From contig JAEKLQ010000060.1 in the NCBI GenBank assembly GCA_019509785.1, positions 1-39,587 of the forward strand: a stretch of DNA of 39,587 bases, written 5' to 3'. Shown here piece by piece: positions 23,709 to 34,993 of this stretch. Position 1 is the stretch's first letter. Every line of letters begins with the position of its first letter. The notes beneath the pieces were generated by a model, which made no database searches, was not told where the DNA came from, and worked only from the letters and a program-made list of their open reading frames with translations. The DNA is from Fibrobacterota bacterium (GTDB taxonomy: Bacteria; Fibrobacterota; Fibrobacteria; UBA11236). The position numbers were made by a program, and so were the translations under genes.

Positions 23709-24116
23709 ATGCGCGTCCCCTTCCGTATCCGATCCGCTTTCCCGGCCGGTGCCGCCTTGCTGTTGGCGGCGGGCCTGAGCGCCGCTATCGCCGGCCCCAA
23801 ATCCCCCTCCCCTACCGATTCGGCCGCCATCGTTCCCGCCGGTATGCATGCCCATATGGATTGCATGGCGGACTCGGCCGAAATGGGCAAGCTTCGGCAG
23901 ACCGTACAGGACGCATTAAAGTCGGGGGACAAGGCCAAAATGAAAGGCGCCTTGGAGAAGGTGGACGCCCATTTCGCCAAAATGCAGGACATGATGGAGC
24001 AGTGCAAGGCGGAGATTAAAAAGGCCGGCGGCGCCTCGATGGATCACGAGGGCGGAATGATGTGCGGAAAGGATCATGAAGGCGGAGGGGCTTCCAAAAG
24101 CGCAAATCACAAATAG
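23709..24116 (+). CDS. Small secreted His/Met/Cys-containing protein
   Basis: This 135-residue protein has a signal peptide (MRVPFRIRSAFPAGAALLLAAGLSAAIA) and an AGGAG ribosome site five bases before the ATG. The mature part has two metal-type clusters: GMHAHMDCMADSAEMG near residues 45-60 and MDHEGGMMCGKDHEGGG near the C-terminus. Between them is a charged, Ala/Lys-rich helix (MKGALEKVDAHFAKMQDMMEQCKAEIKKAGG). His, Met and Cys at this density in a periplasmic protein suggest copper or other soft-metal binding, but no known family matches. Its design resembles the small secreted helical proteins at 3678 and 4196, which lack these clusters. A hairpin with a T-tract 78 bases after the stop (24195-24223) could end its transcript. 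It is probably a single-gene unit. Confidence 0.7.
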   Translation: MRVPFRIRSAFPAGAALLLAAGLSAAIAGPKSPSPTDSAAIVPAGMHAHMDCMADSAEMGKLRQTVQDALKSGDKAKMKGALEKVDAHFAKMQDMMEQCKAEIKKAGGASMDHEGGMMCGKDHEGGGASKSANHK

Positions 24117-24301: not shown

Positions 24302-24550
24302 ATGACCCGAACCGAACTGTTGCCCGCCGTGGCCCGAATCGCTTCTTCCGTGATCGGCGAAGAGGATCTGGACATCAAGCCGGAAACCGCTTTTGCTTCG
24401 GTGGAAGGCTGGGATTCCCTGAATCATCTCCACATCGTGGTCGGATTGGAAAAGGCTTTCGGGATCCGCTTCGCCGATTCAACGCGTCTGCAAAGCGCCA
24501 CTACGGTCGGGGATCTGCTCGACCTGATCGCGTCCACCCGCGGAAACTGA
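24302..24550 (+). CDS. Acyl carrier protein
   Basis: This is an 82-residue carrier protein. GWDSLNHLHIV contains the serine that receives 4'-phosphopantetheine (Ser in DSL), followed by the helix GLEKAFGIRFAD, and the N-terminal helix LLPAVARIASSVIG; length and helix order are typical. Pattern and size resemble small carrier proteins in polysaccharide-acylation and aminoacyl-transfer operons as much as DltC, which usually has a different run-up to the serine. It starts the operon: the MBOAT gene begins eight bases after its stop, then the adenylation gene. The carrier would shuttle an activated acid from the adenylating enzyme to the membrane acyltransferase. AGGAG lies before the ATG. The 185 bases upstream contain a GC-rich hairpin region (24264-24283). 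Confidence 0.92.
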   Translation: MTRTELLPAVARIASSVIGEEDLDIKPETAFASVEGWDSLNHLHIVVGLEKAFGIRFADSTRLQSATTVGDLLDLIASTRGN

Positions 24551-24558
24551 TCGCCCGC

Positions 24559-25959
24559 GTGGACTTCCTCTCCGTTCCCTTCCTTGGGCTGCAGGCCATC
24601 CTGCTCACGCTCTACTGGTTCACGCCGGATCGGCAATGGCAAAACCGCGTCTTATTGGGCGGTACCCTGTTTTTCCTCTTTTCCCTGGGCCGCGCCACGG
24701 CCTGCCTTCTCATCGCGTCGACCGCGCTGGAATGGATGATCGCCCTGCGCTTGGAGAAGGCGGCTTCGCCCCGGGGCCGCCAAGCCTGGTTATGGGCCAG
24801 CGTATTCCTGAACATCGGCGCGCTCGCCGCCTGCAAATTCGGGCGCTTCCTCCCGATCGACTTCGGCCTCTGGCGCATGCCTACCGAGTGGCTCAAGATG
24901 CTAGTACCAATCGGGCTTTCCTTTTGGACTCTGCAGAAGATGTCCCTGACCCTGGACGTCTATTTCCGCCGGCGCGCCGCCGAGAGGGATCTGACCGCAT
25001 GCCTGCTCTTCGCCGGGTTCTTCCCCACCGTGCTTTCCGGGCCCATCGAAGCATCCCGCAATTTCCTCCCGCAGTTGGAGAAGAAGCGGATCTGGGACGT
25101 CCGCCGCTTTTCGGAGGCCATCTGGCTGATCGCCCAAGGGGCTTTCTTGAAAGCCGTCATCGCCGACAACCTGGCCCCGGTGTCGGAAAACCTGCTCGGG
25201 CCGGGCGCGCACGGGATATCCGTAGTGCTGGGCGGCTACGCCTACGCCCTGCAATTGTTCGGGGACTTCGCGGGATATTCCTACATGGCGCGGGGGATCG
25301 CGCGCGCCTACGGCATCGATATCACCCAGAATTTCGTCGCGCCCTTCCTCACGCGTAACCTTTCCGATTTCTGGAAACACTGGCACGCGTCCCTCACCGC
25401 CTTCCTCAATGAAAACGTCTTCGCCCCGGTTTCCTTGCGCCTGCGAGGCCAGGGCACCGCGGGAATCGTGATCGCCATCTGGGCCACCTTCCTGGCGAGC
25501 GGGGTCTGGCACGGAACCGGTTGGCTCTACGTCGCCTACGGGGGCATCCACGCGCTCGGCATCTCCTTCCTCGCGACGACGCGGAACTGGCGCAAGAAAA
25601 TGGTCTCGCGATTCGGGAAAGAAGGCTGGTACGCGACGGCATGCATCATGCTTACCTTCCATTACGTAGTCATGAGCTTCCTGGTGTTCCGATCCCCGGA
25701 TCTGCATACCGCATTGGCCCAATTGGGAGCCGTATTCCGCGGGGGCTGGAGCCTATCCGGCCTGGAAATCGATTGGGCCACCTTGCTGCTTTCCGGCCTC
25801 GCCGTTTTCTGGCTGCAAAGCCGCGTACAGGCCGCCCGTGACGTCTTCTGGATCTTCGCGCGCCCGGTCTGGTTCCGCGTCGCCTTCTATCTGCTCCTGG
25901 GCTTCCTGCTGACGCGGTACTTCGCGCCGCCCGACCGCTTCATCTACTTCCAATTCTGA
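24559..25959 (+). CDS. MBOAT-family membrane O-acyltransferase (DltB/AlgI-like)
   Basis: This 466-residue protein starts with GTG at 24559, the only sensible start (VDFLSVPFLGLQAILLTLYWFTP). It has about ten membrane segments. The MBOAT core is obvious: ILVPIGLSFWTLQKMSLTLDVYF-type helix near residues 112-135, GFFPTVLSGPIEASRNFLPQLE, then GGYAYALQLFGDFAGYSYMARGIARAYGI, RNLSDFWKHWHASLTAFL and the catalytic-histidine segment ATFLASGVWHGTGWLYVAYGGIHAL. MBOAT enzymes of this type move an acyl group across or at the membrane: DltB takes D-alanine from a carrier protein, AlgI takes acetyl. The neighbours, a carrier protein and an adenylation enzyme, favour the DltB-like mechanism. The stop is four bases before the adenylation ORF's first ATG, so the operon is continuous. 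The acceptor polymer is not known. Confidence 0.93.
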   Translation: MDFLSVPFLGLQAILLTLYWFTPDRQWQNRVLLGGTLFFLFSLGRATACLLIASTALEWMIALRLEKAASPRGRQAWLWASVFLNIGALAACKFGRFLPIDFGLWRMPTEWLKMLVPIGLSFWTLQKMSLTLDVYFRRRAAERDLTACLLFAGFFPTVLSGPIEASRNFLPQLEKKRIWDVRRFSEAIWLIAQGAFLKAVIADNLAPVSENLLGPGAHGISVVLGGYAYALQLFGDFAGYSYMARGIARAYGIDITQNFVAPFLTRNLSDFWKHWHASLTAFLNENVFAPVSLRLRGQGTAGIVIAIWATFLASGVWHGTGWLYVAYGGIHALGISFLATTRNWRKKMVSRFGKEGWYATACIMLTFHYVVMSFLVFRSPDLHTALAQLGAVFRGGWSLSGLEIDWATLLLSGLAVFWLQSRVQAARDVFWIFARPVWFRVAFYLLLGFLLTRYFAPPDRFIYFQF

Positions 25960-26017
25960 CGCTATGACGATAACGACGCCGAGCCGGCCAACGGGGCTTG
26001 GGAATCGGGAGGGACGG

Positions 26018-27619
26018 ATGGCACCTAATCTGGCGCGGCACTTTTACTCGGCGGCGGCGCGAGCACCCCGGTACCCGGCCGTCCTCCATGAAGGCGGCAG
26101 CCTGGACTACGCGGGCTTGCGCGATCTCGCAGAAAGCCTGCGGGGCGGGCTCGCCGATGATCAGCGGCCCTTCGCCGCCGTGCTCTCGCCGAGAACGCCC
26201 TTCGCTTACGCCGCGGTGCAAGCGATCCTGGCGGAAGGCAAAGCCTATGTCCCCTTGAATCCGAAATTCCCCGCCGAACGCAATGCCTATATCCTGGAAA
26301 AGGCGGAGATCAGCACCCTCCTGGTCGGGTGGGAATGCCTCGAAAACGTGGCCGCCCTCGCGCCCCTGCTCCGCAGGCCGTTGCGGGTTTTGCTCCTGGA
26401 TACCCCGGCCGCTCCGGCCCAACCCGCCGTGGCCGGGCTCGATGGCCTGGAAATCCTACGCGTACCGATGCGCGCCGATCGCGAACCCGCCCCGCTGAAG
26501 GCCGCGGAATCGGGCGGAGGCTACGTGCTTTTCACCTCGGGCAGCACGGGAAAACCAAAAGGGGTCCGCGTCACCGGCGCCAACGTGGAATCGTACTTGC
26601 GTTCCTTCCAAGCCGCCTACCCCCTCTTTCCCGGGGACCGGGTTTCGCAATTGTTCGATCTCACCTTTGATTTGGCGGCCCATGATCAGTTCTCGACCTG
26701 GGCGGCGGGGGCGACCTTGGTTGCATTTCCGGAGAAGGCGCTGCTGGCCCCGATCCCTTTCGCCCGTAACCACGGTGTTACGGTATGGTTCTCGGTGCCG
26801 GCCCTGCCCGCTTTCCTGGAAAGCGCCCGGCAGGCCGCCGACGGGGCGCTGCCGGAAGTGCGCTTGAGCCTGTTCGCGGGCGAGAAGCTAACCCTCAACA
26901 CCTGCGCGCTTTGGCGGCGCATCGCGCCCAATTCCCGCATCGCGAATCTATACGGCCCGACGGAAGCCACCATCGCCATCACCCATTTCGAGTTGCTTCC
27001 GGGATTCCCTCCCGAAAGGGCCCTGCACGGCGGCGTCCCCATCGGGAAAACCTTTCCGGGGCAGGAAGCCGAGGTGCTTCGCGAAGACGGAAGCCTATGC
27101 GGATCCGGGGAGATCGGTAGCCTGTGGCTGGCGGGCGATCAAGTGGCCGAAGGCTACGTGGGCGACGAGGCCAAGACCGCGGAGCGTTTCCAGGCCCGCG
27201 GCGGGAAGATCTGGTATCGCACGGGGGACCTTGTCGCGCGGGATGACGAGGGTTATCTGCATTACCTGGGCCGCGAGGATTTCCAGGTCAAGGTGATGGG
27301 CTACCGCATCGAGTTGGGGGAAATCGAACATGCCCTCCTGGCCGCATCCGGGGCGGCCATCGCCCTCGCCGATGTCGCGCCTTTGCGCAACGGTTTGGAG
27401 GAAATCTACGGGGTGCTCCCGGCGGCATGCGCCCCCCGTCGGAAGGCCATCCTGGCGGGCCTGAAGGAGCGGTTACCAGCTTATATGGTCCCGCGCCGCG
27501 TCTTCTTCCGCGACGATATCCCCGTGAATTCCAACGGCAAGATGGATCGGCAGGCCCTTAAGGCCGTTCTCCTGGCCGAAGCCGCGGCTGCCGCCGATAC
27601 GATACCGGCGCCAGCTTAA
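26018..27619 (+). CDS. Acid-activating adenylation enzyme (DltA-like, AMP-forming)
   Basis: This 533-residue protein begins at the ATG at 26018, which has GGGAGGG five bases upstream; the first in-frame ATG (25964) would add 18 residues without a ribosome site. Motifs of the ANL/amino-acid-adenylation family are in order: LFTSGSTGKPKGV (171-183), FDLTFDLAAHDQFSTWAAGATLV, LSLFAGEKLTLNTCALWRRIAP, NLYGPTEATIAIT, YRTGDLVARD, DFQVKVMGYRIELGEIEHALL and, near the end, NSNGKMDRQALK with the catalytic lysine. It has no carrier or condensation domain, as in DltA. The enzyme would activate an amino or hydroxy acid with ATP and load it on the adjacent carrier protein. The substrate cannot be read reliably from the pocket by eye; D-alanine is only the default analogy. 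Its 3' end converges with the sigma gene, 13 bases away. Confidence 0.92.
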   Translation: MAPNLARHFYSAAARAPRYPAVLHEGGSLDYAGLRDLAESLRGGLADDQRPFAAVLSPRTPFAYAAVQAILAEGKAYVPLNPKFPAERNAYILEKAEISTLLVGWECLENVAALAPLLRRPLRVLLLDTPAAPAQPAVAGLDGLEILRVPMRADREPAPLKAAESGGGYVLFTSGSTGKPKGVRVTGANVESYLRSFQAAYPLFPGDRVSQLFDLTFDLAAHDQFSTWAAGATLVAFPEKALLAPIPFARNHGVTVWFSVPALPAFLESARQAADGALPEVRLSLFAGEKLTLNTCALWRRIAPNSRIANLYGPTEATIAITHFELLPGFPPERALHGGVPIGKTFPGQEAEVLREDGSLCGSGEIGSLWLAGDQVAEGYVGDEAKTAERFQARGGKIWYRTGDLVARDDEGYLHYLGREDFQVKVMGYRIELGEIEHALLAASGAAIALADVAPLRNGLEEIYGVLPAACAPRRKAILAGLKERLPAYMVPRRVFFRDDIPVNSNGKMDRQALKAVLLAEAAAAADTIPAPA

Positions 27620-31787: not shown

Positions 31788-32615
31788 TCATGGCCCTATG
31801 CCCCGGCCGCGAAGGTCGCGCGCTCCGGGCGCCCCGGGCCCGAAGAAAAGCATTTCCCCATACGTTCCCGGATCCCGAAACCAAAATGCGCCGTTCCCGC
31901 CCGCGGATGCGCCTGCGCGCCCCGCGGCATCCCCACGGGCCAGGAAAGTAACGGATCCGATCAAATCGGCGGCCACCACGCGCTCATAAAGCAGCCTATG
32001 ACCATGATTATTGGTATGGATCCCGTCCCCGGAATTGAAGGCCTGGATATAGTTTCCCTGGGAATCCCCCAGGCTGTCGTAGAAATTCAGGGCCCGGGGC
32101 GCGTATCGGGTCATGATGCGATCGCGCAGGGCGAGGATCTTGTTACGCCCCGTGGCATCGAGCGCGCGCGGGAGCGGCGTGGTGATCCACAGCGGAATGC
32201 CCGCGCTCTCCGCCATGGCATGCAAGGTATCGTAATTTGACTCATACTCCGAGGCGGGATAACCGTTGGCGATGTCGTTGGTACCCATGCACAGCAGTAG
32301 AACGCGGGGATGAAGGGCAAGGGCCTTGGTGATGTTATGCGCCGGGTCAGGCTGCGAGCGGCCGGAAGGGGAGACGTATCCGGTAGGCATCAATTGAAAG
32401 GTGGTGTACCCGCTCACCGCCAGATTGGTCAAGGTCCAGGCGGGATTGCGGCTTTGCAGGTAATGGGCATAGCGCCCCGCGAAGGAGCTATCATAGGTAC
32501 TGGCGCCGGTACCGGAGGCCGTGGAAGCTCCCAGGAGGACGATGGTCCGTTCCTGGGCGAAAGCGCCTGCGAGGCAGGCCAGGAGGAATCCGCTGACGAA
32601 TGCCGCTCTTCCCAT
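31788..32615 (-). CDS. Secreted SGNH/GDSL hydrolase
   Basis: This 275-residue protein starts at 32615, where GGGGGA lies six bases before the ATG and MGRAAFVSGFLLACLAGAFA is a signal peptide. The open frame continues upstream to 32930 without coding character. SGNH blocks are present: block I reads LLGASTASGTGAS, with the nucleophile Ser in GAS instead of the usual GDS; block II-like NLAVSGYTT; block III LCMGTNDIAN (Asn, with Asp); and block V DGIHTNNHGH (Asp and His). The enzyme would remove acetyl or other ester groups, probably from polysaccharide, outside the cytoplasm. The last 50 residues are Gly/Ala-rich and look like a poor tail. It leads the operon with the DUF6483-like and beta-helix genes, which suggests joint action on a glycan. 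Confidence 0.88.
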   Translation of the reverse strand: MGRAAFVSGFLLACLAGAFAQERTIVLLGASTASGTGASTYDSSFAGRYAHYLQSRNPAWTLTNLAVSGYTTFQLMPTGYVSPSGRSQPDPAHNITKALALHPRVLLLCMGTNDIANGYPASEYESNYDTLHAMAESAGIPLWITTPLPRALDATGRNKILALRDRIMTRYAPRALNFYDSLGDSQGNYIQAFNSGDGIHTNNHGHRLLYERVVAADLIGSVTFLARGDAAGRAGASAGGNGAFWFRDPGTYGEMLFFGPGAPGARDLRGRGIGP

Positions 32616-32727
32616 GTCGTATCCCCCAGGGTTAAATATACCTCGACTCCCAATCGTACATACGATTACTAACGATGCGGCTATCCTATCGATGTCCAAA
32701 TCCGTCCTCGCCCGTTCGTCATTAGGT

Positions 32728-32761
32728 AGGCTTGCTAAGCCTGACCGGCAAAACCGGCTTA
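32728..32761 (+). promoter_or_regulatory. Alternative hairpins in the leader of the ECF42 operon
   Basis: AGGCTT (32728-32733) can pair with AAGCCT (32737-32742), and TAAGCC (32736-32741) can instead pair with GGCTTA (32756-32761). The two folds share the middle arm and so exclude each other. An inner CCGG (32745-32748 with 32754-32757) could add to the second. The ribosome site AGAGGAG is at 32772-32778, ten bases after. A role as a translational or attenuation switch is possible but unproven. Confidence 0.35.
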
Positions 32762-32783
32762 AATTTCCCAAAGAGGAGTTCTT

Positions 32784-33149
32784 ATGAAAGAGTATATGTT
32801 CCTGTTTCGCGGCCCCCGCAACGATCACAATAAAGTCCTGGACACTCCTGAGAAGTGGCAGGTGCATATGCAGAAATGGGCTGCCTGGATGGGCGAGCTC
32901 GCCAAGCAGGGGAAACTCGTTTCCGCCCAACCGTTGGAAACCGATTCCGGCAGGTTGGTGAAACCCGGAAAGCAGCCCGCCACCGACGGGCCCTTTATCG
33001 AAGGCAAGGATCTGATCGTGGGCGGCTACCTTATTTGCAAGGCGGAAAGTTATGAGGAAGCCGTGGCCATTTCCCGGGGTTGCCCCTCCCTGCAGGACTT
33101 CGATTCCGCTTTTGTGGAGGTACGCGTCGTCCAGGAATTGAAGCCCTGA
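32784..33149 (+). CDS. DGPF/YCII-domain protein, partner of ECF42 sigma
   Basis: This 121-residue cytoplasmic protein begins MKEYMFLFRGPRND and carries the family-defining ATDGPFIEGKDLIVGGYLI, including the DGPF motif. Length and fold (a ferredoxin-like dimer, by family) are standard. DGPF-type YCII proteins are encoded with ECF42 sigma factors, and here the downstream sigma gene starts inside the stop codon (TGATG), so the two are translationally coupled. In studied ECF42 systems the DGPF proteins are regulon members, and they are not thought to act as classical anti-sigma factors. AGAGGAG six bases before the ATG is a strong ribosome site. The leader has alternative hairpins. It is divergent from the SGNH hydrolase gene. 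Confidence 0.93.
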   Translation: MKEYMFLFRGPRNDHNKVLDTPEKWQVHMQKWAAWMGELAKQGKLVSAQPLETDSGRLVKPGKQPATDGPFIEGKDLIVGGYLICKAESYEEAVAISRGCPSLQDFDSAFVEVRVVQELKP

Positions 33150-34929: not shown

Positions 34930-34993
34930 GGTTTTTTTGGTTCTATCTATATCTATTTAAGATTTAGTATGTATTGTATATAAAGAAAGGAAT

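Follow-up and report, generated by a model that had tools for sequence, protein, structure and literature searches.

The window, which is the whole stretch of 39,587 nucleotides analysed here, carries three consecutive genes on one strand, encoding a carrier protein (ACP), an MBOAT O-acyltransferase and a stand-alone adenylation enzyme (Table 1). They are separated by 8 bases (ACP/MBOAT) and 4 bases (MBOAT/adenylase), and an AGGAG is found in the upstream sequence a few bases 5' of the ACP ATG. An earlier note on this DNA had read the three genes as one operon and had pointed to GWDSL in the ACP and SGVWHG in the MBOAT; the three open reading frames, their tight gaps and both motifs bear this out. 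No acceptor-polymer gene is linked to the trio. A gene for a small protein lies directly 5' of the trio, but it is not conserved with the trio.

Table 1. Features of the trio locus and of the other loci discussed in the text. Plain numbers are window positions; other positions carry the handle of their contig or locus.
Feature	Position	Strand	Remarks
Small-protein gene	23709-24116	+	likely signal peptide; Met/His-rich C-terminus; no family match
ACP	24302-24550	+	82 aa; GWDSL; Pfam PP-binding 3.8e-8, above cut-off
Predicted phosphopantetheine site of ACP	24416-24418	+	codon of Ser39
MBOAT O-acyltransferase	24559-25959	+	466 aa; SGVWHG; Pfam MBOAT 3.7e-18, above cut-off
C-terminal acyl-shuttle hexapeptide of MBOAT, F461-I-Y463-F-Q-F466	25939-25956	+	predicted acyl-accepting Tyr463, codon 25945-25947
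Stand-alone amino-acid-type adenylation enzyme	25964-27619	+	551 aa; Pfam AMP-binding 7.2e-56; NCBIfam amino-acid adenylation domain 1e-90
Secreted GDSL/SGNH gene	31788-32930	-	PF13472
Intergenic FIYNTY-stop reading	34964-34984	-	DltX-like by motif alone
Homologue of the sisters' fourth protein, window genome	C70:32399-33133		GDS present; runs into contig end
Second MBOAT of the window genome, with AlgX/AlgJ-like candidate partner	L027:6716-9501 (G000:C55)		MBOAT ends FLYFQF
Second copy of the operonic SGNH protein in G001	L044:8162-9226 (G001:C175)		unlinked
A-ACP-MBOAT-SGNH	L075		acetate-CoA-ligase-like enzyme
Fatty-acyl-AMP-ligase-like enzyme-ACP-MBOAT	L074
MBOAT-SGNH with ACP, short AMP-ligase and SDR nearby	L083:332-5671; L069:2890-9497; L090:10001-14896		Myxococcales and Hyphomicrobiaceae MAGs
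GNAT-ACP-SGNH-SGNH-MBOAT	L056:5778-11437		carrier has NWSSL in place of GWDSL
MBOAT (FxYxxF)-SGNH-FkbH-ACP among glycosyltransferase-like genes	L051:10001-14368		Aquimarina mytili; FkbH TIGR01686 above cut-off

Among the 10 genomes of the family that were searched, clear MBOAT orthologues were found in two of the same genus, G003 (52% identity) and G001 (47%). Both sister genomes carry an operon in the order ACP-MBOAT-SGNH-adenylase, set in different gene neighbourhoods (18-19 kb read around each). Identities between the window and the sisters were 47-59% for the MBOAT and the adenylase (59% for the adenylase) and 51-56% for the ACP, in which W37-D38-S39 was invariant across the three orthologues. 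In a survey of 168 genomes from this phylum, the window genome (G000), G001 and G003 were the only ones in which the adenylase orthologue and the fourth, SGNH protein were detected at the thresholds used; remoter adenylation domains in other genomes scored far lower. The three trio MBOATs formed one clade in a tree (support 1.0), separate from 12 paralogues in the genus. Because the operon is kept in two same-genus genomes, we do not regard it as a chance arrangement; the trio stays linked in both sisters, and unlinked trio genes were not seen in these relatives. The Gram-negative-type cell supposed in the earlier note fits as well, as the sister operon is found in a Fibrobacteria bacterium, which is diderm.

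The adenylase has the core motifs of adenylation enzymes and scored 304.5 bits against the NCBIfam AA-adenyl-dom model. Its residues 236, 237, 240, 276, 303, 305, 329, 337, 338 and 526 make up the pocket DLHFLALIAK, and the sister pockets read DVHFLALVAK and DVHFLALIAK. In comparison with AlmE (DLHLFCLIA), IdnL7 (DCFFLALIT) and Lactobacillus plantarum DltA (DLMVLCTVA), the window pocket has D, L, H, L, I and A in common with AlmE and D, F, L, A, L and I with IdnL7, and was nearest to these two. AlmE activates Gly, and IdnL7 accepts Gly, L-Ala and L-Ser but rejects D-Ala (PMC11253843). Asp236 of the adenylase stands at the alpha-amine ligand position of amino-acid enzymes. In the pocket alignment, Ala305 occupies the position of DltA Cys269, where the substitution C269A relaxes the preference for D over L (PMC4176424), and an Ala also replaces Cys316 of AlmE, one of the two selectivity residues of that enzyme. 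Since the pocket resembles those of AlmE and IdnL7 and has Ala305 at the DltA Cys269 position, Gly or L-Ala is the expected substrate, with D-Ala possible; the substrate may differ between the window and the sisters, in which Leu237 is replaced by Val. A fatty-acid substrate was rejected on the pocket residues. Of the amino or hydroxy acid that the earlier note had proposed as the decoration, the former is in keeping with the amino-acid pocket found on comparison with DltA, AlmE and IdnL7.

By overall score, the nearest adenylase relatives in the PDB were NRPS-like adenylation domains, as could be the case if the adenylase and the ACP served to make a small secondary metabolite, with the MBOAT gene between them by chance. 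We consider this highly improbable, given that three genomes retain these genes together although their surroundings differ, that the trio operon contains no gene for condensation, thioesterase or other NRPS functions, and that a carrier beside an MBOAT recurs in other phyla.

Against the DltB equivalog model (TIGR04091), the MBOAT scored 167.2 bits (cut-off, 375), with a match confined to residues 35-377, the core. DltB was its only match in a sequence search of the PDB, and structures of DltB were also the best PDB matches in Foldseek (TM 0.67-0.69) for its AlphaFold2 model (pLDDT 92.2, pTM 0.91). The protein is approximately 90 residues longer, and the model places two C-terminal helices (406-426 and 437-454), which DltB lacks, beyond the DltB-like core. 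The end of the protein, FIYFQF, fits the acyl-shuttle motif FxYxxF, and F461, Y463, F466, His276 and His318 were invariant in 49 MBOAT sequences. In PatA, the Tyr of FxYxxF is auto-acetylated and the acetylated hexapeptide becomes the donor to PatB; in Dlt the motif lies on a separate peptide, DltX, and in other MBOATs on two extra helices (PMC12148441). Since FIYFQF and two extra helices are present as in PatA-type MBOATs, the window MBOAT is predicted to be of the self-shuttling type. No DltX candidate was found near the operon, the sole FxYxxF C-terminus there being that of the MBOAT itself. The earlier note had overlooked the C-terminal FIYFQF, which is central to the mechanism considered below, and its proposed likeness to Dlt is not supported at the MBOAT, where the DltB-equivalog cut-off is missed and the C-terminus is PatA-type.

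The intergenic FIYNTY-stop reading in the window is probably a chance occurrence. The second MBOAT gene of the genome has an AlgX/AlgJ-like candidate partner directly 3'.

In G001 and G003, the fourth gene lies between the MBOAT and adenylase genes. Its product, of approximately 330-370 aa, begins with a hydrophobic helix and contains the motifs LLGDS and WDDxxHLK. An SGNH gene is absent between the MBOAT and adenylase genes of the window operon. In Pfam, the fourth protein gave only weak GDSL and DltD traces (sister SGNH against PF04914, E 0.049), and an SGNH profile found no match among PDB sequences; the likeness came from the fold search. The AlphaFold2 model of the protein, of moderate confidence (pLDDT 73.6), shows a single helix at the N-terminus together with an alpha/beta domain, and Foldseek matched it to SGNH enzymes, with Enterococcus faecium DltD (6pfx) at rank 3 and PatB (7tjb) at rank 40. 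Of 23 weak matches to the profile of the fourth protein in other MBOAT loci, 12 were MBOAT-adjacent ORFs, whereas such ORFs made up 122 of 1194 in the pool as a whole (P = 4e-7). In an alignment, its GDS serine and DxxH shared columns with those of 27 other MBOAT-adjacent SGNH proteins, which had been chosen for such motifs, so that the alignment is supportive rather than independent. The fourth protein is thus predicted, from sequence and model, to be a membrane-anchored SGNH protein that takes the position of DltD or PatB in those pathways.

The window genome encodes a homologue of the fourth protein on another contig (C70), unlinked to the trio and beside cytochrome oxidase genes. The gene is interrupted by the contig end and not by a stop, and its DxxH part lies beyond that end; a search for the rest of the gene with the SGNH C-terminal tail, run without a positive control, gave no match. 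The four SGNH copies share 45-50% pairwise identity, values that do not single out an origin for the C70 copy. The second, unlinked copy in G001 is located near genes for a polytopic membrane protein and an ABC sugar transporter. Pfam DltD (PF04914) had no match in the window genome, and the controls, Bacillus subtilis and Lactococcus lactis, gave matches. The secreted GDSL/SGNH gene 4 kb from the trio was also considered as a partner and was rejected, as it is on the opposite strand and not of the operonic type; it probably encodes an unrelated esterase, and its family, PF13472, is found in 13 other stretches of the genome. The description of the trio as a module without DltD therefore holds at this locus and fails for the system, given the SGNH gene in both sister operons.

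With the SGNH gene missing from the window operon and its sole homologue incomplete in the assembly, the trio could be a decaying remnant that lost the gene and whose pathway is dead here. This appears quite improbable: the three genes are intact and tightly spaced, their catalytic residues are conserved, and the C70 homologue ends without a stop. It is also unlikely that the MBOAT itself hands the amino acid on to a lipid or glycan acceptor, with no SGNH protein involved, in the manner of AlmG on Vibrio cholerae lipid A. The 4-base gap between the MBOAT and adenylase genes leaves no SGNH gene there, the pocket is nearest that of AlmE, and AlmEFG likewise consists of an adenylase, a carrier and one acyltransferase; however, AlmG is an LPLAT protein and not an MBOAT (PMC3783018), and no use is known for the intact FIYFQF in the absence of an SGNH acceptor (PMC12148441). 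A partner elsewhere and direct transfer were the two options that the earlier note had left. Direct transfer is disfavoured because the MBOAT retains the hexapeptide from which SGNH enzymes receive acyl groups. The SGNH gene in both sister operons, together with the unlinked homologue in the window genome, makes a partner elsewhere the better option.

Collectively, the trio probably belongs to an MBOAT-SGNH system that is fed by a carrier and adds aminoacyl groups to a polymer of the envelope or one that is exported. Judging from pocket and family, the adenylase would use ATP to activate a small alpha-amino acid, most likely glycine or L-alanine, and load it onto the phosphopantetheine of the ACP. 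By homology, the charged ACP would then dock on the MBOAT from the cytoplasmic side, in the way that DltC docks on DltB. With chemistry like that of PatA, the MBOAT would use His318 to move the aminoacyl group to its own Tyr463 at the outer face. From there, the membrane-anchored SGNH protein, for which the C70 homologue is the likely candidate in the window genome, would take the group onto its serine and join it in ester linkage to a hydroxyl group on a glycan or another polymer of the envelope. LPS and exopolysaccharide, put forward in the earlier note, would be candidate acceptors. The expected effect would be positive charges on the cell surface.

The Dlt system (DltA, DltB, DltC, DltD and DltX) carries out D-alanylation of teichoic acids in Gram-positive bacteria, PatA/PatB carries out O-acetylation of peptidoglycan, and AlmEFG carries out glycinylation of lipid A in Vibrio cholerae. 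Like Dlt, the proposed system has an adenylase to load an amino acid onto a small carrier, an MBOAT to move the load across the membrane and, in the sisters' operon, an SGNH protein for the last step. Unlike Dlt, it lacks DltX, whose hexapeptide is fused to the window MBOAT on the two extra helices; its pocket has H, F, A and L in place of M, V, C and T in DltA; and its host is diderm, not Gram-positive. The adenylase scored 222.5 bits against the DltA equivalog (TIGR01734; cut-off, 559.85). The term Dlt-like is thus apt for the logic of carrier loading and not for membership, since no cut-off for DltA, DltB or DltD was reached. With PatA/PatB and the alginate and cellulose acetylation pairs, the trio shares an MBOAT with a C-terminal FxYxxF and the catalytic His318 and, in the sisters only, a membrane-anchored SGNH protein encoded beside it. 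It differs from these pairs in that its operon has an ACP and an adenylase to supply an aminoacyl group, whereas PatA/PatB-type systems use an acyl-CoA donor and no carrier protein (PMC12148441). AlmEFG is also a Gram-negative adenylase-carrier-acyltransferase trio, and it differs in the acyltransferase family, as given above, and in having no SGNH partner. The trio is likely a hybrid that resembles Dlt in its donor half and PatA/PatB in its membrane half, and it falls outside the usual definition of either. A search of the open-access literature found no description of this combination.

According to the prevailing view, carrier-fed acylation goes with Dlt and DltX, and other MBOAT-SGNH systems are fed by acyl-CoA without a carrier (PMC12148441). 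The operon described here unites a carrier-loaded amino acid, as predicted, with a self-contained PatA-type shuttle. Should it be active, the operon would stand beside AlmEFG as a second way for Gram-negative bacteria to place amino acids on surface molecules, and the feeding of a donor to an MBOAT would be separable from the way in which the acyl group crosses the membrane. Two predictions are that Y463 is acylated from an ACP donor and that a small amino acid is present on a Fibrobacteria envelope glycan.

Outside Fibrobacterota, distribution was assessed from 80 related MBOAT loci of many phyla, which were found with a three-row alignment; a single-sequence scan of genome contigs had returned none. 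Nearly all 80 have an FxYxxF-type end. A carrier protein was encoded within 8 kb of the MBOAT in 8 of the 80, the sister operon (L049) among them, and the amino-acid-type adenylase occurred only in the Fibrobacteria operon among these carrier-linked loci. Carriers therefore appear to feed FxYxxF MBOATs outside Dlt, which runs counter to the general statement in PMC12148441; proximity is no proof of function, however, and some of the linkages are loose. In Aquimarina mytili, the gene order suggests that glyceryl-ACP feeds an MBOAT-SGNH pair that would decorate a polysaccharide. It is possible, and we propose it tentatively, that these loci represent a general, overlooked class outside Gram-positive bacteria, in which a relay of an FxYxxF MBOAT and an SGNH protein would be served by various carrier loaders and would transfer amino acids (Fibrobacteria operon), glycerate (L051), short acyl groups (L075) or fatty acyl groups (L074) onto surface polymers. 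In the MBOAT tree, the sister of the Fibrobacteria trio clade was the MBOAT of the GNAT-containing locus, L056.
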